Source of the DNA: Thelephora terrestris
Taxonomy: Eukaryota; Basidiomycota; Agaricomycetes; Thelephorales; Thelephoraceae
NCBI GenBank assembly: GCA_015956445.1
Contig: WIUZ02000015.1
Location: forward strand, 770,001-834,000
DNA: 64,000 bases
Reading direction: 5' to 3'
In this document: positions 8,705 through 52,000 of the stretch, one piece after another
Position numbering within the stretch: the stretch's first letter is position 1
Layout of the letters: each line of letters starts with the position of its first letter
Made by a program: the position numbers and the translations under genes
The notes under the pieces: model-generated
Database searches by the model: none
Seen by the model: only the letters and a program-made list of their open reading frames with translations
Told to the model about the DNA's origin: nothing

Positions 8705-9429
8705 CACTGGGGGCAAGGGGGTACTTACCCAGTAGGTACATTGTGAGTTCATTGTGGGTTTTGAAACCATTTGCCCAGTTGTTACCCACCAGGTACTTTT
8801 GGGGTACTTTTTGAAAGATACCCATCAATTCGCCCGAATTTTACCCACTGGGTACATGGTGGGTACTTTGTAAAAGTACCCACTCAGGAACCCAGTGGGT
8901 ATTTTTTGAGCGAAACCCCTGGGTTCTTTCACAATTCACTTTCCAATGTGCCCATCACAAACCTGAGCCACTCATTGAGAGTTCTTTCATAAAGTACCCA
9001 CCAATCTGATCACAATGTACTCAACCAGATACTCAATGGGTTCCTTGAGAGTTTGCAATGAAACTGAGCCACACTGTGAGTTCTTTGTGAGTTCTTTGAA
9101 AAAAACCCACTGGGTACATTGTGATCAAATTGGTGGTTACTTTATGAAAGAACTATCAATGAGTGGCTCAGGTTTGTGATGGGCACATTGAAAAGTGAAT
9201 TGTGAAAGAACCCAGGGGTTTCGCTCAAAAAATACCCACTGGGTTCCTGAGTGGGTACTTTTACAAAGTACCCACCATGTACCCAGTGAGTAAAATTCGG
9301 GCGAATTGATGGGTATCTTTCAAAAAGTACCCAAAAAGTACCTGGTGGGTAACAACTGGGCAAATGGTTTCAAAACCCACAATGAACTCACAATGTACCT
9401 ACTGGGTAAGTACCCCCTTGCCCCCAGTG
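8705..9429. mobile_element. CACTA-like foldback element, 725 bp, 3-bp target duplication
   Basis: The element is an almost perfect inverted repeat with a short centre near 9030-9110. It begins CACTGGGGGCAAGG and ends with the complement. The trinucleotide ACA flanks both ends (8702-8704 and 9430-9432). CACT termini with a 3-bp target duplication are the known signature of CACTA (EnSpm) transposons. The interior is filled with short repeats built on 'cccactgggta' and 'gtgggtacttt', like the subterminal repeats of that superfamily. It encodes no transposase; the mirror-image 73-codon ORFs on both strands are by-products of the palindrome. Confidence 0.75.
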
Positions 9430-10450: not shown

Positions 10451-11483
10451 ATAGCTGCAGCTGAGAAAATATATTTCTCCTAGTTAACAAGCTACCTCAG
10501 AAATAAATTTCTTCCAGTTAAGCCTAAGATTTACATTTGTTATCTTGTGGCATGCCACAATTGTAAATGTGCAATCCCAACCCAACCTATAGCCCATCGT
10601 CTCGGTCCAGTGACTGAGGTGGATCCGTTGTTTTGGAGAGGGTAGTTCCAAATTGGGCTGGTGCCGACAGTATGGGTCTGCTGAGCATTTGGGCTGCTTA
10701 CATAATAATTGATGGCTTATATAAGGAGGTCATGTGACTTACCAAAAAGGAGATTTTTGATGGCTTACATAAGCAGATCACATGACTGAAAAAAGTGGAT
10801 GTTGCTTATATAATCAGATCATGTGACTGTCCAAAAAGGAAAAGTTTTGATGGCTTACATAAGTGACTCAAAATGATTTTGACATTGAATTTCCTTTTTG
10901 GGAAATTCTGATGGCTGACATAAGCAGGTCATGTGACTGAAAAAAGTGGGTATTGCTTATGTAATCAGGTCATGTGATTGACCAAAAAAGGAAAGTTTTG
11001 ATGGCTTACATAAGCAGCACAAAAATGCTTTTGGCAAAAATTACCAAAAAGGGAAAGTTCCTTTCTAGGAAAGACTTTCCAAAAAAGGAAATTTTGATGG
11101 CTTACATAAGCAACTCAAAATTGCTTTTCGAAAAAATTACCAAAAAGGAAATTATATGCTAAAAAGCTTGGAAAAATCCCAGAAAAATCCCAAAAATAAC
11201 AAGAAAATTCCCAAAATATCGAAAAAATAGTTTTTCTGGCTGGATACATCCGGAAAAATGCCCAAAAATTCCAGAATATGTATAAATATTTTATAAAAAT
11301 TATTTTAATTTTTTTAGTCCATTAAATAGCCCACAATTTCGATATTAATGTATTTTCTGCCCCTAAAAATTCCCAAAAAATAAATGAAAGTTGAAAAATA
11401 AAGATAAATTTATAGTCTTCATTATATCATAAAGTACAGACCTGTTTGTGGTCATAATCTACCCCCAAAACCAGTCATAGAAT

Positions 11484-11862
11484 CAACCTAACCTAACCCT
11501 AACCCTAAACCTAAACCTAAACCTGCCCTAAACCTAACCTAACCCAACCTAACCCTAAACCTGCCCTAACCCTAACCTGCCCTAACCCTAACCTGCCCTA
11601 AACCTAACCTGCCCTAAACCTAACCTGCCCTAAACCTAACCTGCCCTAAACCTAACCTAACCTAACCTAACCTAACCTAACCTAACATAACACAACCCTG
11701 AACCTAAACCTAACATAACACAACCCTGAACCTAAACCTGACCTAGCACAAAGCCTAAATCTAAACCTAACCTGGCCTTATCTTATCTTATCTTATCTTA
11801 TCTTATCTTATCATGTCTTACCCAGCCTAAACCTAACCTAACCTAACCTAGCCTAGCCTAAC
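11484..11862 (+). repeat. telomere-like CCTAAC/CCCTAA array, left arm of P1
   Basis: Irregular runs of CCTAAC, CCCTAAC, CCTAAAC and CCTGCCCTAAAC. A (CTTAT)n microsatellite lies at about 11775-11815. The canonical fungal telomere unit is CCCTAA/TTAGGG; here it is mixed with degenerate units and is interstitial. Confidence 0.8.
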
Positions 11863-12765
11863 ATGACATAGTCCACTTAAATTAGTCCACCACAGATCAC
11901 CCAACCTAACCTGAAGTGGCCCACCTGACCAGTCTGAGGCAACTTGATTTGATCTTACCTAATCAGCTGCTATCTTATCTAACCTTAATTCATATACCCT
12001 AGCTAACCAACATCTAACCCAATCTCACCTGGCTCACCAGCACGTAACTGGGCTACAAGAACACACTGCGAGCTGCACCATCCATATCCTATGTCCAATC
12101 GTCACTCAAGCACAAAAACTGTGGTGGACCTACAAGTCAGTGGACCCATAAGCCCACAGGCCCACATAGACTGCTCACTCAGTGTTGACATCTGTTATCC
12201 AACCTCATCCACATACCACCCTCACCCTGTGTTCTGTACCAGACTGCAACTTCATCACTACTGAAATTCAACCACCTGGCTGAACTTGCAAGCCAGATTG
12301 ATATAGACTACCAGTTATGCATCCATGGATTTGTAGGCCTGAGAGTACATGAGTTCAGCCAGGTGGTTGAACTTGAGTTGTGGTGAGGTTGTAGTCTGGC
12401 ACAGAACACAGGGTGAGGGTGGTATGTGGATGAGGTTGGATAACAGATGTCAACACTGAGTGAGCAGTCTATGTGGGCCTGTGGGCTTATGGGTCCACTG
12501 ACTTGTAGGTCCACCACAGTTTTTGTGCTTGAGTGACGATTGGACATAGGATATGGATGGTGCAGCTCGCAGTGTGTTCTTGTAGCCCAGTTACGTGCTG
12601 GTGAGCCAGGTGAGATTGGGTTAGATGTTGGTTAGCTAGGGTATATGAATGATAAGATAGCAGCTGATTAGGTAAGATCAAATCAAGTTGCCTCAGACTG
12701 GTCAGGTGGGCCACTTCAGGTTAGGTTGGGTGATCTGTGGTGGACTAATTTAAGTGGACTATGTC

Positions 12766-13181
12766 ATGTTAGGCTAGGCTAGGTTAGGTTAGGTTAGGTT
12801 TAGGCTGGGTAAGACATGATAAGATAAGATAAGATAAGATAAGATAAGATAAGGCCAGGTTAGGTTTAGATTTAGGCTTTGTGCTAGGTCAGGTTTAGGT
12901 TCAGGGTTGTGTTATGTTAGGTTTAGGTTCAGGGTTGTGTTATGTTAGGTTAGGTTAGGTTAGGTTAGGTTAGGTTAGGTTTAGGGCAGGTTAGGTTTAG
13001 GGCAGGTTAGGTTTAGGGCAGGTTAGGTTTAGGGCAGGTTAGGTTTAGGGCAGGTTAGGTTTAGGGCAGGTTAGGGTTAGGGCAGGTTAGGGTTAGGGCA
13101 GGTTTAGGGTTAGGTTGGGTTAGGTTAGGTTAGGTTTAGGGCAGGTTTAGGTTTAGGTTTAGGGTTAGGGTTAGGTTAGGT
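12766..13181 (-). repeat. telomere-like TTAGG array, right arm of P1
   Basis: This is the mirror image of the left-arm array, with the same order of variants and a mirrored (ATAAG)n tract at about 12808-12852. It has slightly more copies of the 'ttagggcaggttaggt' unit than the left arm. Confidence 0.8.
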
Positions 13182-14155
13182 TAATTCTATGACTGGTTTT
13201 GGGGGTAGATTATGACCACAAACAGGTCTGTACTTTATGATATAATGAAGACTATAAATTTATCTTTATTTTTCAACTTTCATTTATTTTTTGGGAATTT
13301 TTAGGGGCAGAAAATACATTAATATCGAAATTGTGGGCTATTTAATGGACTAAAAAATTAAAATAATTTTTATAAAATATTTATACATATTCTGGAATTT
13401 TTGGGCATTTTTCCGGATGTATCCAGCCAGAAAAACTATTTTTTCGATATTTTGGGAATTTTCTTGTTATTTTTTGGGATTTTTCTGGGATTTTTCCAAG
13501 CTTTTTAGCATATAATTTCCTTTTTTGGTAATTTTTTCGAAAAGCAATTTTGAGTTGCTTATGTAAGCCATCAAAATTTCCTTTTTTGGAAAGTCTTTCC
13601 TAGAAAGGAACTTTCCCTTTTGGTAATTTTTGCCAAAAGCATTTTTGTGCTGCTTATGTAAGCCATCAAAACTTTCCTTTTTTGGTCAATCACATGACCT
13701 GATTACATAAGCAATACCCACTTTTTTCAGTCACATGACCTGCTTATGTCAGCCATCAGAATTTCCCAAAAAGGAAATTCAATGTCAAAATCATTTTTGA
13801 GTCACTTATGTAAGCCATCAAAACTTTTCCTTTTTGGACAGTCACATGATCTGATTATATAAGCAACATCCACTTTTTTCAGTCATGTGATCTGCTTATG
13901 TAAGCCATCAAAAATCTCCTTTTTGGTAAGTCACATGACCTCCTTATATAAGCCATCAATTATTATGTAAGCAGCCCAAATGCTCAGCAGACCCATACTG
14001 TCGGCACCAGCCCAATTTGGAACTACCCTCTCCAAAACAACGGATCCACCTCAGTCACTGGACCGAGACGATGGGCTATAGGTTGGGTTGAGATTGCACA
14101 TTTACAATTGTGGCATGCCACAAGATAACAAATGTATTTTCTCAGCTGCAGCTGC

Positions 14156-14428: not shown

Positions 14429-15653
14429 CACTGGGGACAAACCCCAGTTTTCCGGCCCGGGACATCATAAATGCATTGTAAGGAAATGGCAAATGTGCCT
14501 GGCAATGACCCACCTGGTACATCATAAATACATTCAAAATGTCCAGGCCAATTTCCTTAGAGTGTTGCCAGCACAGGAAATGCTCAGTACATTCATGGTG
14601 TTCCTGGTCATGTGATCTCAGTGTTCCCATCAGGTAATCCATGGGAACATCATGAATTTTCCCAAAGAAATACCCATGATGTCCCTGAGTGGCTCATTGG
14701 GGGAAAACCCTGAGTGAACCCACAGTTTCCCAGGTCATGTGACCTTGATGTCCTGATTAGGTAATCTGAGGGTAAACCATGAATTTTCCCAAAGAAAGTA
14801 ACCATGGTGTTCCTGAGTGGCTCATTCACAGTGTTCTTTCCAGTGTTCCCAGTGGTGTGATCACGGTGTTCCGAGTCAGTAAAATTCAAATTGAGCCTTA
14901 ACGGTGCGCCGTAAGTATACCAGTGTGGTATATCCTGAAAGTACTAAGGCCTTCGACCATGATGTACCAAAATTCAGCAAACTGTCAGGAAACTGTGGGA
15001 ACACTGAAAGGAAACTGAGAAATTGGGAACATTTTGAATGAGTTTATGATGTTCCCAGTGTCCCCAGTTTCCTTTCAGTGTTCCCACAGTTTCCTGACAG
15101 TTTGCTGAATTTTGGTACATCATGGTCGAAGGCCTTAGTACTTTCAGGATATACCACACTGGTATACTTACGGCGCACCGTTAAGGCTCAATTTGAATTT
15201 TACTGACTCGGAACACCGTGATCACACCACTGGGAACACTGGAAAGAACACTGTGAATGAGCCACTCAGGAACACCATGGTTACTTTCTTTGGGAAAATT
15301 CATGGTTTACCCTCAGATTACCTAATCAGGACATCAAGGTCACATGACCTGGGAAACTGTGGGTTCACTCAGGGTTTTCCCCCAATGAGCCACTCAGGGA
15401 CATCATGGGTATTTCTTTGGGAAAATTCATGATGTTCCCATGGATTACCTGATGGGAACACTGAGATCACATGACCAGGAACACCATGAATGTACTGAGC
15501 ATTTCCTGTGCTGGCAACACTCTAAGGAAATTGGCCTGGACATTTTGAATGTATTTATGATGTACCAGGTGGGTCATTGCCAGGCACATTTTCCATTTCC
15601 TTACAATGTATTTACGATGTCCCGGGCCGGGAAACTGGGGTTTGTTCCCAGTG
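14429..15653. mobile_element. CACTA-like foldback element, 1225 bp, 3-bp target duplication
   Basis: A near-perfect inverted repeat centred near 15040 starts CACTGGGGACAAACCCCAG and ends with the matching CTGGGGTTTGTTCCCAGTG. TGT flanks both ends (14426-14428, 15654-15656). The ends share CACTGGGG with the 8705 element, and both have 3-bp duplications, so they belong to one superfamily (CACTA-like) although their interiors differ. The interior repeats are built on 'cagtgttccca' and 'tcaggaacac'. Mirror ORFs of 77-79 codons within it are palindrome artefacts. Confidence 0.75.
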
Positions 15654-18996: not shown

Positions 18997-19017
18997 GGTG
19001 TGCGTTGCGTGAGGATC

Positions 19018-19272
19018 CGTGAATCGTTGAGGTGATCAGGGGCAGAATATATTTATTTGAAATTTACAATGCAAACTAGGCGGGAGGCTACCGAGCGGCA
19101 TTTTTAGCCCACTCCAGGCTAGGCTGTGCGGCACGACGAACAAGCTGCCTTCGTCGTGCCACACAGCCTAGCCTAGAATGGGCTAAAAATGCCGCTCGGT
19201 AGCCTCCCGCCTAGTTTGCATTGTAAATTTCAAATAAATATATTCTGCCCCTGATCACCTCGACGATTCACG
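19018..19272. mobile_element. 255-bp hairpin (MITE-like)
   Basis: Positions 19018-19133 and 19147-19272 are inverted copies around a loop of about 13 bp; only a few bases differ. Both outer ends read cgtgaatcgtYgaggtgatc. It lies 21 bases before the ATG of the Myb/SANT-like gene and at the broken 3' end of the transposase-like gene. No target duplication was recognised, so its family is undetermined. Confidence 0.7.
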
Positions 19273-20504
19273 ACAGCCTCGTTATCCCATGGGTGCCCGT
19301 ACAATGTCCCGGTTTCGTGTGAGGTGGCCTGTCCAACTAAAAGATTGGGTTCCTTGATGACGGCCTCCATGTGACTTTTGATAAGATCGTAGTCGGTACC
19401 GAGATCTAGTCTGTTCAAGGGGAGATCATTTGGGGCGCGGATGTGCTGAATAAAAGGAATGCTGATCGCCTGAGAGTAGAGTGACATAACAGAGAGTTCT
19501 GAGAGCGTGGGAGGGTCGTTGAGACCAGTCAGGACATTCTGTTCGAGGTGATTCAGTTCGCCACGCAGGGATTTTGAGTCAGCCACTTCATGTAAGAAAG
19601 AGAGGTAGAGATCTCGGTGGTGGAGAATTTCGGTTGCGGCAAAGCCATGACTTTGATATCGATTGTTGCTCGTGTCCGGGAATTGAATTGGCTGTGACGT
19701 GTCGAGAAACTTCATCGAGAATGCCCGAAAACGTTCCTGGTGGCCTTTCTTTGTCTCCCTGTGTTTGACGAGTGCACCTAGAAGGCCTGTCAGCTTTGCT
19801 CCTCCCCTATCTCCAGTTGCAGCCAGCGATTCCTCTGGAAGTGAGCCAGAATCTGCAGCGATTGCCTTGAACTTGTTCATCAACACAACTGGAGCAGTTC
19901 CATCACCATGTTCCTTCCACCAGCTTGCCATCCGGTTAACCCCGCCTTTCATCGCATTCAGATCCTTGTGCATCGCACACCCGGACCAGACCCAGTAATC
20001 TATGGCTGCCTTCTCGTCGGGTGGCAACCGTTGATATACCTGTTCGCCAAGGCAAATCTGTGCCTCATGGATTAGCCGCTTTGCAAACTGAAGCTGCTCA
20101 CCGAGCGAGAGTGTGTTGTAAAGCTCAGGACCGCCAAGCTCATCAATCATCTCCTTCCCTTTCTCCTTGAACACCTGCTCCCACTCCTCCCTGTACTCGC
20201 CCGAGAGCATCGCAGCTTCCCCTCGGAGTTCTCGATCGCAATCCCGCCGAAAATGCTCCAGCATGCCCGAGAGCTTCTTCTGGTCCGCAGCGTGATCGCT
20301 CAGATACCCTCTCAACTTCTCCCATATCCTAGTCGGGTCGGCAGGGGCAGCATTCCCAATAGGACTTTTGTTGTATGTTCCACACAGGTCCTGTACTGTA
20401 TGTTTCCAACCCTCAAATTGAGTGCTGGTGGTGTGGTTTACCTCGGGGATAACCCCAAGGAAGATGTCCTTCGGGGGGGTGTTGTCTGAAGATATGATTG
20501 TGGC
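19273..20504 (-). pseudogene. transposase-like gene, C-terminal part
   Basis: This is the downstream half of the gene that starts at 25195, separated from it by palindrome P2. Its frame is open for about 410 codons. Visible motifs, in order: 'FLGVIPEVNHTT', 'LSDHAADQKKL', 'GCAMHKDLN', then 'SMKFLDTSQPIQFPDTSNN'. An Asp in 'SGDGTTHK' (upstream part), an Asp in 'SDHAADQ' and the C-x2-H in 'GCAMHK' resemble the order of acidic residues and zinc-like pair in hAT/KDZ-type RNase H-fold transposases; this assignment is inference. Similar proteins are widespread in mushroom genomes as unnamed ORFs. The C-terminus is cut by the hairpin at 19272. Confidence 0.6.
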
Positions 20505-20525
20505 ACAGGTTTCAGCTACTTTTTC

Positions 20526-21935
20526 CCCATGGGTCATGGGCCATACGGCGTGACAAAATCCCATGACCCATGGGCCATACGTCGCCGTACGACAGGTACA
20601 AATCCCCATGACCCATGGACCGTACGATGGTGTGTGGGCCCCATGACCCATGGGTTGTACGGTGCTGTATGACAGTATGGCCTGTCCATGACCCATGGGT
20701 TGTACGATGCCGTACGGTGGTATGCCCTTCCCATGACCCATGGGCCGTACGGTGGTGCTGGACAGCCATCCACCCTGCTCATGACCCATGGGGTGTACGG
20801 CGCCGTACGGTGGTATGCCCTGCCCATGACCCATGGGTCGTACGGCGCCGTATGGGGGTTTGCCCTACCCATGACCCATGGAGCGTACGGCGCCGTACGG
20901 TGGTTTGCCCTACCCATGACCCATGGAGCGTACGGCGCCATACGGTGGTATGCCCTACCCATGACCCATGGAGCGTACGGCGCCGTACGACAGTATGCCC
21001 TACCCATGACCCATGGAGCGTACGGCAGTATGCCCTGCCCATGACCCATGGGTCGTACGGCACCGTACGGTGGTATGCCCTACCCATGACCCATGGGTCG
21101 TACGGCGCCGTATGGGGGTTTGCCCTACCCATGACCCATGGAGCGTACGGCGCCGTACGGTGGTTTGCCCTACCCATGACCCATGGAGCGTACGGCGCCG
21201 TACGGTGGTATGCCCTACCCATGACCCATGGAGCGTACGGCGCCGTACGACAGTATGCCCTACCCATGACCCATGGAGCGTACGGCGCCGTACGGCAGTA
21301 TGCCCTGCCCATGACCCATGGGTCGTACGGCGCCGTACGGTGGTATGCCCTACCCATGACCCATGGGTCGTACGGCGCCGTACGGTGGTATGCCCTACCC
21401 ATGACCCATGGGTCGTACGGCGCCGTATGGGGGTTTGCCCTACCCATGACCCATGGAGCGTACGGCGCCGTACGGTGGTTTGCCCTACCCATGACCCATG
21501 GAGCGTACGGCGCCGTACGGTGGTATGCCCTACCCATGACCCATGGAGCGTACGGCGCCGTACGACAGTATGCCCTACCCATGACCCATGGAGCGTACGG
21601 CGCCGTACGGCAGTATGCCCTGCCCATGACCCATGGGTCGTACGGCGCCATACGGTGGTATGCCCTACCCATGACCCATGGGTCGTACGGCGCCGTATGG
21701 GGGTTTGCCCTACCCATGACCCATGGAGCGTACGGCGCCGTACGGTGGTTTGCCCTACCCATGACCCATGGAGCGTACGGCGCCGTACGACAGTATGCCC
21801 TGCCCATGGCCCATGGGTCGTACGGCGCCGTACGGTGGTATGCCCTGCCCATGACCCATGGACCATACGGCGCTGTACAGTGGAATGCCTTGCCTATGAC
21901 CCATGGGTTGTACAGTGCCATACGGTGGATTACCT
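20526..21935 (+). repeat. 45-bp minisatellite, left arm of P2, about 31 units
   Basis: The unit contains two self-complementary cores, 'acccatgggt' and 'cgtacggcgccgtacg', plus a variable 'ggtggtatgcccta' linker. Variants such as 'gggggtttgccctac' recur near 20850, 21115, 21425 and 21690, showing a higher-order block of 6-7 units (about 265-310 bp) duplicated several times. Confidence 0.9.
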
Positions 21936-21944
21936 CGAAAAGAA

Positions 21945-22145
21945 TATTTAATGGATTACCTAATAAGGAACTATATGATGGATTACCTAAAAAGGAAATA
22001 TTTGATGAATTACCTAAAAAGGAAAGATCTGATGGATCTCCCCAAAAAAGAAATATTTGATGGATTACCTAAAAAGAAAAATTTGCTTGACTGCCTAAAA
22101 GAGAAATAGTTGATGGATTACCTAAAAAGGAAATATCTGATTGAT
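21945..22145 (+). repeat. subterminal short repeats, left arm of P2
   Basis: About seven copies of a 'gatggattacctaaaaagg'-type word with spacers of 20-30 bases. The mirror block lies at about 23405-23640. The words resemble the 'gatggcttacataagc' plus 'aaaaaggaaa' modules of P1. Confidence 0.75.
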
Positions 22146-22264
22146 TCTGGAAAATAGCAACATCCTAACCTAACCTCAAGGCACTGCCAGATCAGGAATC
22201 CATTCACCTCTTGCATTAGTTTTCTGTTTGTAGTCCTGACTAACCCAAAGTGGTTAAGCTAACA

Positions 22265-22350
22265 TCATCCAATCTAACCTAACCTAACCTAACCTAACCC
22301 TAACCTAACCCTAACCTAACCCTCACCTAACCTAACCTAACCTAACCCAA
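22265..22350 (+). repeat. telomere-like array, left arm of P2
   Basis: Short run of CCTAAC and CCCTAAC units; the mirrored TTAGG run is at about 23170-23300 with different copy number. Confidence 0.75.
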
Positions 22351-23169
22351 CCCACCTGAAATAGCCAATCTAACCCATTTCAACCTAACCTAACCTGCAG
22401 TGGTCTATCCAACCTGACTATAGCTTTGCCTAAGCTGACTCATGGCAAACAAGTCCTAACTTAAACTTGACCTTGCCTAGCACACCAACATGTAACATGG
22501 GTTACAGGAATGCAGTGCAAAGTGCATACCCCTTGGGGGACCTCCACCTGTATTTAGCCATAAGCTGGCTATCACTTGAACACACCTACTAAGCTGGACC
22601 TACCAGTTGGTAGACCTGCAAGCCAACAGGTCCATGGACTATATTCCATAAGCTGTGCCTGCCACCCAACTATATTCACCTCTCTTGTACCAGATATTAA
22701 CTTGATGACAAATAAAGCCAATCCACCTGGCTGAACCTATGACCCAGTGGACTCATTAATTCATAAGTCTATAGGTCTGTGGGCCTGTAATGTGGAGGAA
22801 CACACCCAGCTGGATTCTGGGTCTGTTCAGGTAGGTAAATTTGAGTTGTTGCTGAGTTTTGGCCTGGGCAAGAGATGTTTTGTGAATGTGGTTGGTGGTA
22901 ATTGAGTGGCAGGATCTTTTATGGAATACCAGTCCAAGGACCTTTTGGCTTGCAGGTCCACCAACTGGTAGGTCCAGGTTAGTAGGTGTGTTCAAGTGAT
23001 AGCCAGCTTATGGCTAAATACAAGTGGAGGTCCCCCAAGGGGTATGCACTTTGCACTGCATTCCTGTAACCCATGTTACATGTTGGTGTGCTAGGCAAGG
23101 TCAAGTTTAAGTTAGGACTTGTTTGTCATGGGTCAGCTTAAGCAAAGCTATAGTCAGGTTGGATAGACC

Positions 23170-23300
23170 ACTGCAGGTTAGGTTAGGGTGAAATGGGTTA
23201 GATTGGCTGTTTCAGGTTAGGTTAGGTTAGGTTAGGTTAGGTTAGGTTAGGTTAGGTTGGGTTAGGTTGAATTGAGTTAGGTTAGGTTAGAATGGATGAT
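23170..23300 (-). repeat. telomere-like array, right arm of P2
   Basis: Mirror of the left-arm CCTAAC run, read as GGTTA units on the plus strand. Confidence 0.7.
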
Positions 23301-23639
23301 GTTAGCTTAACCACTTTGGGTCAGTCAGGACTACAAACAGAAAACTAATGCAAGAGGTGAATGGATTCCTGATCTGGCAGTGCCTTGAGGTTAGGTTAGG
23401 ATGTTGCTATTTTCCAGAATCAATCAGATATTTCCTTTTTAGGTAATCCATCAACTATTTCTCTTTTAGGCAGTCAAGCAAATTTTTCTTTTTAGGTAAT
23501 CCATCAAATATTTCTTTTTTGGGGAGATCCATCAGATCTTTCCTTTTTAGGTAATTCATCAAATATTTCCTTTTTAGGTAATCCATCATATAGTTCCTTA
23601 TTAGGTAATCCATTAAATATTCTTTTCGAGGTAATCCAC

Positions 23640-24332
23640 CGTATGGCACTGTACAACCCATGGGTCATAGGCAAGGCATTCCACTGTACAGCGCCGTATG
23701 GTCCATGGGTCATGGGCAGGGCATACCACCGTACGGCGCCGTACGACCCATGGGCCATGGGCAGGGCATACTGTCGTACGGTGCCGTACGACCCATGGGT
23801 CATGGGCAGGGCATACTGTCGTATGGCGCCGTACGCTCCATGGGTCATGGGTAGGGCAAACCACCGTACGGCGCCGTACGACCCATGGGTCATGGGTAGG
23901 GCATACCACCATACGGTGCCGTACGACCCATGGGTCATGGGAAGGGCATACCACCGTACGGTGTCGTACGCTCCATGGGTCATGGGCAGGGCATACCACC
24001 GTACGGCGTCGTACGCTCCATGGGTCATGGGCAGGGCATACCACCGTACGGCGCTGTACGCCCCATGGGTCATGGGCAGGGTGGATGGCTGTCCAGCACC
24101 ACCGTACGGCCCATGGGTCATGGGAAGGGCATACCACCGTACGGCATCGTACAACCCATGGGTCATGGACAGGCCATACTGTCATACAGCACCGTACAAC
24201 CCATGGGTCATGGGGCCCACACACCATCGTACGGTCCATGGGTCATGGGGATTTGTACCTGTCGTACGGCGACGTATGGCCCATGGGTCATGGGATTTTG
24301 TCACGCCGTACGGTCCATGGGTCATGGGGAAA
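23640..24332 (-). repeat. 45-bp minisatellite, right arm of P2, about 15 units
   Basis: Same unit as the left arm, inverted, but with about half the copy number and without the internal higher-order duplications. The outermost variants next to the end match those of the left arm, so the difference lies in the inner units. Confidence 0.9.
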
Positions 24333-24350
24333 AAGTAGCTGAATGGGCTC

Positions 24351-25195
24351 ATTGTGGCGTGCCTTGACGAGAATTCAATATTCTTGTGGGTGGTCCCATC
24401 ACCACTGATTGTCATCGCTTGAATAACGAGTGAGTGGCGAGGGTAATCGAAGCATTTGAACTACGAACAAATGCACATCAAAACATATCCCGTTATCATG
24501 AGTCCCGCCGCGATTCCCCCCTCGCGAACTACTCGCCCACTCGTCCGGGTACTCCATTGCCCAATAATCACGATTCCTAGTGCGTCCGCATTTGTTTTCG
24601 TGACGATCCACGTTTTTGATATCGGGACTCCCACATTGACGAGCGTCAAAATCGCCTTGCGCGCCCAGTCTCGAACGATCCCTCGTCGGTCCTTGACATA
24701 CCGTACAATCGGTAGATTCGGGTCAGGGTCGCCATCGGATGTCAAAGCCTTCCGGACCGCGTGGTCGACTCGCAATGGTTCTCGACGGTCGCGAGCGTTG
24801 TGTCTTGCCAGGTCCTTCTTCAGATCCCTGACCTTACCTTGGAGCCCTTCAACTTCGCCTTCACGGGTCACCCTCACCCCTTCCTTTACCCCCTCTTCGA
24901 ACTGAGCCTGTGACTCTTCTTCCAACCTCTTCACCTTCTCGTGCAGGTGTTGTTCTCGTCTCATCGAATTTCGTCGAAACCTTCGGTTTTCATCGCGCTC
25001 CCTTCTAAATCTCTTCTCTGCCTTCGAGAAAAGACGGCGGTCCCTGGGAACAATGATTTCAGGGATGATATCCTCTGCCTCGGAGCTGGTTCCCTCTGCC
25101 TCGTCAGGATGTGACTTAGGCAACCACTGCTGTTTTCCCATTTCGGCGACGTGGGCCTTCTGTTTTCTGGTCCTCTGGTGGCCTTTGAGAGGCAT
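24351..25195 (-). pseudogene. transposase-like gene, N-terminal part (split by P2)
   Basis: ATG at 25195 starts a 727-nt exon to 24469. A 51-nt intron (24418-24468, GTTCGT to TTCAAG) leads to a short exon reading 'SGDGTTHKNIEFSSRHAT' and ending at the P2 insertion. Residues 1-60 are basic, 65-160 form a strongly charged Arg/Glu coiled coil, and 180-240 hold conserved 'VRYVKDRRGIVRDWARK' and 'GVPISKTWIVTKTNA' segments. Together with 19273-20504 this is one gene of about 670 codons. It was intact in frame across the insertion site until P2 landed, so the insertion is probably recent. Confidence 0.6.
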
Positions 25196-25684
25196 TATGT
25201 TCAGTCTTGAGAATAGGATGGGGAGTTCCAAGGTGGTCTTGTCGAGCCTCCTTCTGCACCAGCCTCACATTTGCATTTACCCTCTATTACGTAACTAGCG
25301 TGCAAAACAAAAATGGGAACCGTACCCAGCCCTACCCCTCCCTACCCCCGCCCGACTGAGGATCGCAGCAAACCAACTCAAGTCCCACTAAAACAATCCC
25401 ATTAAAAATAAATAAATAGATATCATTGTCGGATGCAAGGCTGCAATCGACGTGGATGACCACAATTTTTATTCAATAACTCATAAGTCGCCTTTATAGA
25501 AAGCAGATGGGCGAGTCTGCCATAGATTTATCCAGGTTCCCTGTGCATTGAATTATTGTTGATTTTTCTATCTCACGAAAACTTCGATACGTTGTCCTCA
25601 AAGGCTCGCAACTGGTTTTCGGTTGTGGAGGCCATAGGCGCCCGACGATCGGATGGCCCGTGTTGCCGACCACCACAGTCAGGG
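25196..25684. other. spacer upstream of the transposase-like gene
   Basis: No gene seen. The Pro/Ala-coding C-rich tract at 25320-25350 and AT-rich 25390-25430 show no clear terminal repeat for the transposase gene. Confidence 0.3.
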
Positions 25685-49079: not shown

Positions 49080-52000
49080 CAGTGTTGGACAATCAACGAC
49101 TCAAACGTCGTCAACAAGTCATGCATCAAATAATCACGGTAATTTAATTATTTGACCTGATTTGACTTTCGGCCTTCGGACTTCTCGGGGATTCTTAGTA
49201 CGTCATAGTCTAGACCACCTCAAGGTCTGCACGAGCTTGCCTGCAGTGCGCCTGCAGGGTTGTGCGCGGTTTTGTCGAGGCCTATTGTATAAAATAACAT
49301 GTTACATCCCAAATTATACATTCCTCTTTCCCCATGCCCCCAAATGCCGCTCGTAGTTGGTGGCGAAACCAATATTATGATCATCCCGGCCGCGCTGCGA
49401 AACTTGAAGAAGCTTGGGTTGTGGGAGGTAGTACGAAAGCCGAAAAGGTGTACTGTATGCCTTGTTTTGATGCTCACATTGCCGAAATCCTTGTAAAGGA
49501 TGAGCTGGATCTTGGTCTTGGCCGACGAAACATTGTTCGCTCCAGGGAGGAGATAATAACATATGGTATGTCATATCTCATGTTCAGAAGCTATTTAACT
49601 GACGATCGGCCGGTGCCAAGTGTGGACGATACAGAAGAGCCTCCGTGGGCTGCCAGTAGATGGGGAATATGGGTTCCTACGCTATGCTAGCTCAACCCTC
49701 GTCAACCACTTAAAGGTATGCAGCAGGCAAAGCGAGGCCACCCGGGCTCACGCGAGGCACATAGTCACGGCTTCGCCAAAGAAGCAAAATCACTCAGACT
49801 CTACTCATTCAAACGTTCAACTTCCATGGTCGCAATTTAGCCCTGGTACTTCCCACCATTCCCCACCACTCCCCCAGATGTTACCCCCATCTATCCCTTC
49901 AACACGAGCATGCTCGCCAGCTGCCTCCATCTCTGGCCTCTCTGCCTTTCCCTCCCCATACGCATTCCTCACAACCCCACCGAATGGTGACATATTGTTC
50001 AGTCCGGCCAGATCCTACGCCAGCCTCCCCACCATTGCAAGATCACGATCCCAATCTATCTTGATCGATGATTCTGGCGTATGGTCCCCCGAATTCCAGC
50101 GAAAATTTGAGGAGAGGATCGCCCGGATCACCGTTGCTGCCGGTCTACCGCTGTCATGGGTTGACAATCCAGAATGGATTGACTTCATCAGCGATTTCCT
50201 CCCTTTTGCCCGATCTCCATCACGAAAGGTCCTCACCAACCGATTGATCCCCACGGCAGCAAAACATCATCGAGAATTAGCCAAAGTTGCAGCAAAAAAC
50301 CAGAACGCTACTCTCCAAGCAGATGGGTGGACAGGAATAAATTTCCATCATTTGCTCGCATTCATGATCTCCTTCAATAAACAGGTTCGTTCAGTTCTAG
50401 ACTCATGACACAAGACGCCTAATAATCAAGCCATCTATTAGACTCATACATTGAATGTTCAGGACACCTCATCTGAACGGAAGACGGCCGAAAACTTTGT
50501 GACACACCTCGAGAACACAATCAAAACTGTGCGGATCGACTATCATGCCTTTCTCATTGCGGTCGTCACCGATGCATTGGGAGAATGTCGCAAGGCCCGC
50601 AAAGACCTAGCACGGAAGTATCCTGACATCATATTTCTTGATTGCTATGCTCATCAGGTACGTACACTTGGCGTCCATTCTGTTCTTGCACTAACATCTA
50701 CTCGACAGATCAATCTTGTTGTCAGAGATTACTTCAAATCTGATGCATCTGTTCTAGAGTTTACTGATCAGGCGACAGATTTGATAACCTGGCTTCGCAG
50801 CAAAACACAAGTCCTCGCATTGTTAAGAGAAGTTCAGGCGAGATTGGGTGAAAATGCGGTCAAGGCGGTGATTCGTGCCGTTCTCACACGATGGAAAGCA
50901 CATTACCAGTCTTACTCCAGGCTCTTGGATCTTCGTTCAGTGCTGGTTGTGGTAGTTGAAATGGATTCCCGTCGGCCGGAGAAGGATAGGTGCGTTGTTG
51001 CTGGGGATGCCAAGGGAAAGAAAAAAGCGAAGGATATGGTCAAGATCATCAAAGATGATGCTTTCTGGAGGGCATTGCTTCGGTCTGGCATTCACTTCTT
51101 ATTGATATTGTGATTTTTATTAACCCAGCAGATATTTAGGATGAAGTTACACTTGCAGCCTCTCGCGATTGCAGCAAATGTCACACAAGCGGCTTTTTGC
51201 CGTCTCGACACTGTCCTTTTGACCTTCGGGTTCCTTGTTATGCAGTATCAGCAGATGGCGGATGAAGTTGATCACGCCGCATCAACTGCAATAGTCTCTA
51301 GTCTCGAGAAACGTTGGGCTGCAGCAGATCAGGACATCTTTGTTGCCACAGTGATCGTTAACCCTTTCTTTCGGGCTGATCCATTTGCCCGCCATCCGAG
51401 GTTCGTTGTCGCAGGAATCATCGAGCTCCTTGGATGCCTCTACACTTGTTTCTTTCAGGAGATCCCCCCATACACGTTCGACACCGAATTGCGTGACTAC
51501 CTCACTGCGGCGGGACAGTATTCGGAATTGCGCGCAACGTGCCACAGGCATATCGCGATGGCGGAACAACGAGTATGTTCAAATTTGCCCTTCATACTCT
51601 GCCTAGAGTTATAACCAATCTACAGGACGTGCCACTAGATCCACTCGAGGTTTATCAGGACTTGAGCTTCTCCTCAGAGGCTCACTCCCCGTTCCATCGC
51701 CTGGCCGCTCGTCTCCTCTCGGTCTCTGCAAACTCTGCCACGTGTGAACGTCTTTTCAGTGTCTTTGGGAACACGCTCACGAAGCTTCGGAATCGAATGG
51801 GAACCTCGACTTTAAGTTCAATCGCAGAGCTAAAGATGCACGTCCACAATGAACACCATCTCAATTCAACGAAGACGCGGATGAAGCGCATGTTTGCATC
51901 TCGCTCGAAAACCACCCCCCCCTGACAAACTATCAGTGCTGCCGCCAGCCGCACAGCCACCAATCCCACAGCCAGAGTCACTGGCAAGCAACGAGGACGT

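Follow-up and report, generated by a model that had tools for sequence, protein, structure and literature searches.

Foldback elements are recognised by long inverted arms that contain tandem repeats, by an inverted repeat that reaches the very tips, and by dispersed copies flanked by target duplications. In the available part of its description, Tetris of Drosophila virilis has long inverted arms made of tandem repeats, target duplications of 8-10 bp and variable forms, the known copies being devoid of a transposase (PMC4079207). Galileo, a Drosophila element of the P superfamily, carries very long, internally repetitive inverted repeats, in which extra transposase binding sites were located by experiment, according to the accessible sections of the report (PMC3688188). 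The papers found on foldback elements and Galileo in the open-licence literature all deal with animals, as judged by title; no description of a fungal foldback with tandem-repeat arms was found in it, a result that applies to that literature, Repbase excluded, and not to print as a whole. On transposable elements of Thelephora terrestris it offered a genome paper (PMC7550596). The present study concerns a stretch of 64,000 nucleotides from Thelephora terrestris (GenBank assembly GCA_015956445.1, 40.6 Mb; contig WIUZ02000015.1, here contig C7, 770001-834000), hereafter the window, and within it a palindromic element of 3847 bp, designated E1 (window 20504-24350), which splits the predicted transposase gene of another DNA transposon.

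Of the features that mark foldback elements, E1 shows the long, tandemly repeated inverted arms and the dispersed copies with target duplications; what it lacks is an inverted repeat that extends to the very tips. Like Tetris, E1 has long tandem-repeat inverted arms, no transposase recognised in the long copies sampled, target duplications and variable forms, but its duplications measure 7 bp, its tips are fixed and unlike each other, and its host is a fungus; the likeness is one of described structure. We take FB to belong with Tetris as a foldback relative of this type of structure. Very long, internally repetitive inverted repeats are shared with Galileo. A search for P-type transposases (PF21787) gave 0 matches in this genome and equally none in the control genomes, and so carries no weight. 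Miniature inverted-repeat transposable elements (MITEs) are non-autonomous and multi-copy, with long inverted repeats and no genes, as is E1, which differs from them in its kilobase scale, minisatellite arms and unlike tips. Nested transposition is ordinary, and as a nested insertion E1 is routine; what is new among foldback-like elements is the variant in which conserved tips differ although the element is a palindrome. E1 offers a fully resolved fungal foldback insertion: its ends and its duplication are known to the base, a paralogue preserves the empty site intact, and many copies are present in one genome. Its fixed unlike tips on mirror-image elements make left/right discrimination by a transposase testable, and the family makes testable whether minisatellite arms are arrays of binding sites.

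Insertion site and target duplication

The nested insertion of E1 is real and exact to the base. We consider it very probable that a cut-and-paste transposase placed E1, a non-autonomous foldback-like element, within the transposase gene of a DNA transposon unrelated to it, with duplication of 7 bp. The features of the site are as follows (strand given where assigned):

20497..20503: left copy of the 7-bp target site duplication, ATTGTGG; present as a single copy in the uninterrupted paralogue L004
20504..24350: E1, palindromic foldback-like non-autonomous element (arm comparison, end reading, flank match to L004)
24351..24357: right copy of the target site duplication, ATTGTGG
24351..25676, minus strand: 5' part of the host transposon, with its terminus TGGTGGTCGGCAAC at 25676 and the opening part of the transposase gene, which runs a little beyond the GDGTTHK motif
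19272..20503, minus strand: host transposon up to its truncation at 19272, with the later portion of the transposase gene
19017..19273: palindrome of 257 bp where the host transposon is truncated

Two uninterrupted paralogues, L004 (contig C34) and L005 (contig C3), were found with a probe of 131 bases taken from the right flank. Window 24351-25676 corresponds to L004 5029-3704 at 98.8% identity and window 19272-20504 to L004 6254-5022 at 99.0%, the two matches overlapping on L004 by exactly 8 bases. L004, 99% identical, carries the target site once and in frame, and reads through it as SRHATIISSDNTPP; the second paralogue, L005, is 74-80% identical. Both are paralogous copies of the transposon, not alleles. 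A first-pass annotation made from the window sequence had proposed that one copy of the duplication plus the two gene halves would give an uninterrupted frame, and the read-through in L004, with its 8-base overlap of the flanks, bears this out. That annotation had also named alignment of the joined halves with homologues as a check. Among the best 120 of the 208 proteins found, every one matches the left half of the window gene; both halves are matched by 60, of which 47 run on over the 3.85-kb gap to within 8 residues.

The duplication had first been read as an 8-mer, ATTGTGGC, which is located at 20497-20504 and 24351-24358. It occurs 4 times in the window against 2.2 expected from shuffles; the bare 8-mer is thus no evidence, while its placement at both ends of the palindrome is. 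The repeat at 20497 and 24351 stands, but its length is 7 bp, not 8, because a C precedes ACAGGT or ACAGGG in all 18 A ends (defined below) that were read (16 of subfamily 1, 2 of subfamily 2) and the exact repeat at other copies is 7 bp long, which together rule out an 8-bp duplication. The C at 20504 is E1's own first base and matches the target by coincidence. A chance 8-mer is likewise ruled out, by the empty site and the other E1 copies.

A recent insertion had been argued from the lack of other breaks near the site. Both halves of the gene are indeed open there, but homology to intact relatives ends at 19272 and the 3' part of the host transposon is gone, so the claim of recency is weakened. 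Overall, nested insertion and frame continuity were read correctly, the duplication length and recency less so. Inspection of the flanks of the 257-bp palindrome at the truncation point (19017-19273) gave no convincing target duplication.

The interrupted transposon

Further members of the host transposon family lie at L004:3705-8571 and L005:3311-8161. The element measures 4.87 kb and has terminal inverted repeats that reach 12 nt or a little beyond, termini TGGTGGTCGGCA (TGGTGG..CCACCA) and a 7-bp duplication, which is CTTTCAG in L004; in L005 it is 7 bp if the ends are taken as symmetric and 8 bp if one end is shifted by one base. The transposase has a predicted Hermes/hAT-like fold (hAT-type DDE); it gave no Pfam match above the cut-off, hAT sequence models included, and a sequence search of its family against solved structures returned nothing at E up to 1. 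Judged by the predicted fold and by transposon termini with a duplication, the gene earlier called transposase-like is a predicted transposase, belonging to a DNA transposon different from E1. The predicted fold and the 7-bp duplication are shared with hAT and hAT7 elements, 7-bp hAT7 families having been published in rust fungi (PMC12730594, in the part available). Unlike them, the host transposon lacks a Pfam match above the cut-off and has TGGTGG..CCACCA termini, and the usual hAT duplication is 8 bp, against 7 bp in L004. The 39 genome matches of the family, merged by hand, fall at 20 places, the window being one. The split gene exposes a large transposase family, present in several Agaricomycetes and outside Pfam coverage, with a predicted Hermes-like fold.

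Architecture of E1

The earlier report of a 3.8-kb palindromic element is borne out by self-comparison of the window, in which the three main arm pairs are 94-97% complementary: 21483-22299/23265-24081 (96%), 20511-21026/23828-24343 (94%) and the pair of the core (97%). The ends and internal blocks of E1 are:

20504..20531, plus strand: end A, 5'-CACAGGTTTCAGCTACTTTTTCCCCATG (end reading and genome pattern search)
20640..21928: array of a 45-bp unit in the left arm (28.8 copies), with CATGACCCATGG and CGTACGGCGCCGTACG (repeat scan and motif counts)
21926..22146: left-arm block of 27-bp repeats
22274..22352: left-arm tract of CCTAA type, telomere-like
22354..23217: core palindrome, with a 290-nt centre between its arms 22354-22640 and 22931-23217
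23214..23290: right-arm tract of TTAGG type
23418..23638: right-arm block of 27-bp repeats, inverted
23636..24214: right-arm array, inverted version of the left-arm 45-bp unit, 12.8 copies (repeat scan)
24323..24350, minus strand: end B, reading inward 5'-GAGCCCATTCAGCTACTTTTTCCCCATG, its first 7 nt unlike end A (end reading and genome pattern search)

Counted in both orientations, CATGACCCATGG occurs 44 times across 20504-22000 and 23600-24350 combined, and 0 times in the window outside 20400-24400. The tips differ, CACAGGT against GAGCCCA, and the inverted repeat starts only at nucleotide 8.

The E1 family

The end motif CACAGGNTTCAGC gave 94 genome matches and GAGCCCNTTCAGC 95, against 5 for the reversed control in each case; longer patterns resolved 86 A ends and 92 B ends in two subfamilies. 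Joining each end to the nearest end of the opposite kind within 13 kb yielded 74 pairs in the 40.6-Mb genome, spanning 459-12478 bp (median 4.26 kb), and a single pair of neighbouring ends was of the same kind (C12:1196519-1201219). Despite the mirrored arms, the two tips of an element differ: one is CACAGG and the other GAGCCC, each fixed in sequence across the family. Both ends were read in 18 pairs (14 of subfamily 1, 4 of subfamily 2), two rows in which an A end of subfamily 2 had been matched to an end of subfamily 1 having been excluded before counting. An exact 7-bp duplication flanks 14 of the 18: with CACAGG taken as the end, 11 of 14 in subfamily 1, among them the pair on C18 (GTATGCC), and, read by eye, 3 of 4 in subfamily 2.

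Besides the window itself, the 28 best matches to the E1 core are 87-98% identical (40 of 300 candidates scored), and a subfamily-2 copy, L056, is a near-perfect palindrome with 1967-nt arms at 95%. At C12:2532016-2533657, three B ends stand at a spacing of 807 bases, a tandem repeat of element ends.

The arm comparison covered 20 loci, with 19 left arms and 17 right arms. Left and right arms are 96.6% identical within a copy (16 copies) and 96.7% identical between different copies, so that conversion between arms was not detectable in this sample; same-side arms of different copies are 98.4% and 98.9% alike. Because left-right identity is no higher within copies than between them and same-side identity is higher, the palindrome is, on these arm comparisons, older than its spread and is copied as a whole unit.

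E2 and a shared palindromic core

A second giant palindrome, E2, lies at window 10533-14135, with ends unlike those of E1 and subfamily 2 and a core related to both. It has 342-nt arms near its tips that are 100% complementary, and long CCTAA-type tracts; its left flank continues into sequence that also stands beside the same tip in another locus (L054), which makes these limits provisional. With CCTAA-type repeats masked and 300 shuffles as control, the E1 and E2 cores align at 59.7 bits (best shuffle 26.8) and those of E2 and subfamily 2 at 113 bits (shuffles 28.3), whereas E1 and subfamily 2 compared directly reach 26.8 bits, not above shuffles (28.3). These alignments suggest that cores may have been exchanged between elements with different ends. 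A broader conjecture, which we put forward tentatively, is that the palindromic core is a module re-packaged between the ends of different transposons, with an E1 transposase that would need unlike left and right tips and arm motif arrays that would concentrate it.

Mobilisation and candidate enzymes

In the nested-insertion reading given above, a cut-and-paste transposase would have placed E1 in the predicted second exon of the host transposase gene, duplicating 7 bp. E1 spreads as a whole palindrome and would be moved by a transposase acting in trans that presumably reads the distinct left and right tips together with many copies of the repeated arm motif; the two ends probably differ in function. 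Because the repeated arms of Galileo hold transposase binding sites, the arm arrays of E1 may, by analogy, gather transposase through putative binding to their motif.

The family is regarded as non-autonomous because the long copies that were sampled contain either other elements or arms alone, and because neither the 60 KDZ places nor the 19 other places of the host family fall inside its pairs. No transposase of their own was recognised in seven long copies, which contain nested elements or arms only. Three of these, L057, L058 and L059, all of subfamily 2, were rejected as autonomous elements since a nested insertion of about 3.3 kb is common to them; of 10 open reading frames (ORFs) from these loci that were compared with Pfam, nine had no match and one had two matches below the cut-off. 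This insertion, whose ORFs have no Pfam match above the cut-off, occupies L057 5238-8537, L058 1609-7874 and L059 3015-6342, sits at a different place in each, and is split by further DNA in L058. Judged by eye only, L065 has Helitron-like frames and L066 a copia polyprotein-like frame. Among the partial copies, L064 contains an E2-like palindrome and L067 arms and centre only.

Several observations tell against this account of E1. No duplication was found in two of the 18 pairs (C8:765527-775885 and C8:853287-855715, both in subfamily 1), and two more have one mismatch, one in subfamily 1 (C10) and one in subfamily 2. Twelve A tips and 18 B tips were left unpaired, and counts from the genome searches are lower bounds. 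The pairing rule itself demanded opposite kinds, which leaves the neighbour check as the sole independent test of asymmetry. The long copies are a sample of seven, three (L057, L058, L059) taken whole and four (L064, L065, L066, L067) in part, and an autonomous partner was not found, so that movement in trans is likely rather than observed.

Our best guess for the mobilising enzyme is Kyakuja or a hAT-like transposase. That a Kyakuja (KDZ) transposon, of the kind found in Agaricomycotina, gave rise to E1 as a non-autonomous derivative is a possibility to which we give limited weight. In Laccaria bicolor, according to the available part of the source (PMC12730594), two Kyakuja families produce 7-bp duplications, and their CA..TG ends carry no terminal inverted repeats; E1 shares the 7-bp duplications, one CA end and the lack of an inverted repeat at the extreme tips. 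KDZ transposases are also abundant in the genome (125 matches, combined by hand into 60 places), and two KDZ families that were sampled, with one end seen in each, have the tips CACCTC.. and ..CTACTG. The other end of E1, however, is ..GGGCTC instead of ..TG, giving termini CA..TC, and its arms are long inverted repeats. None of the 60 KDZ places lies inside any of the 74 end pairs, so that no KDZ transposase was found within E1; a non-autonomous derivative would give the same result. The Cryptococcus KDZ elements, as far as the accessible part of their report goes, have terminal inverted repeats of 139-241 bp and duplications of 8 bp or 4-8 bp (PMC12810828).

Somewhat less probable is a hAT-fold transposase of the 7-bp type, a relative of the family whose gene E1 split. 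The duplications of that family (7 bp in L004, 7 or 8 bp in L005), its predicted Hermes-like fold and the hAT7 families of rust fungi would fit such an enzyme, but its termini have nothing in common with CACAGG/GAGCCC, and none of its 19 other genome places lies inside an E1 pair. The host family itself was rejected as mobiliser, with no E1-like ends at L004 or L005 and no member inside a pair. The hAT dimerisation domain PF05699 is rare, with 3 genome matches, one at window 51698-51823, and none of the 3 falls inside any of the 74 pairs (coordinates compared by eye).

An origin as a Mutator-type foldback, which most described foldbacks are thought to be, appears improbable: the long inverted arms, internal tandem repeats and absence of coding capacity match Tetris and other foldbacks in the accessible text of PMC4079207, but exact 7-bp duplications in 14 of 18 pairs contrast with the 8-10 bp of Tetris, and the tips of E1 are not inverted repeats of each other. 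An assembly artefact in a palindrome that is hard to assemble, flanked by an 8-mer repeated by chance, is scarcely credible: the 8-mer alone is at about chance frequency and palindromes can be misassembled, but the same ends recur in many dispersed copies, mostly with 7-bp duplications at different sites among those read, and the uninterrupted relative L004 fits to the base.

Other observations

Two further near-perfect palindromes, at window 14429-15653 and 8705-9429, have 5'-CACTGGG..CCCAGTG-3' ends and, by eye, 3-bp direct flanks (TGT and ACA); in form they resemble CACTA/EnSpm-type MITEs. On contig C26, between 9313 and 69596, CCTAA-like arrays stand about 9.98 kb, or a multiple of that distance, apart (five positions listed), and are perhaps ribosomal DNA spacer.

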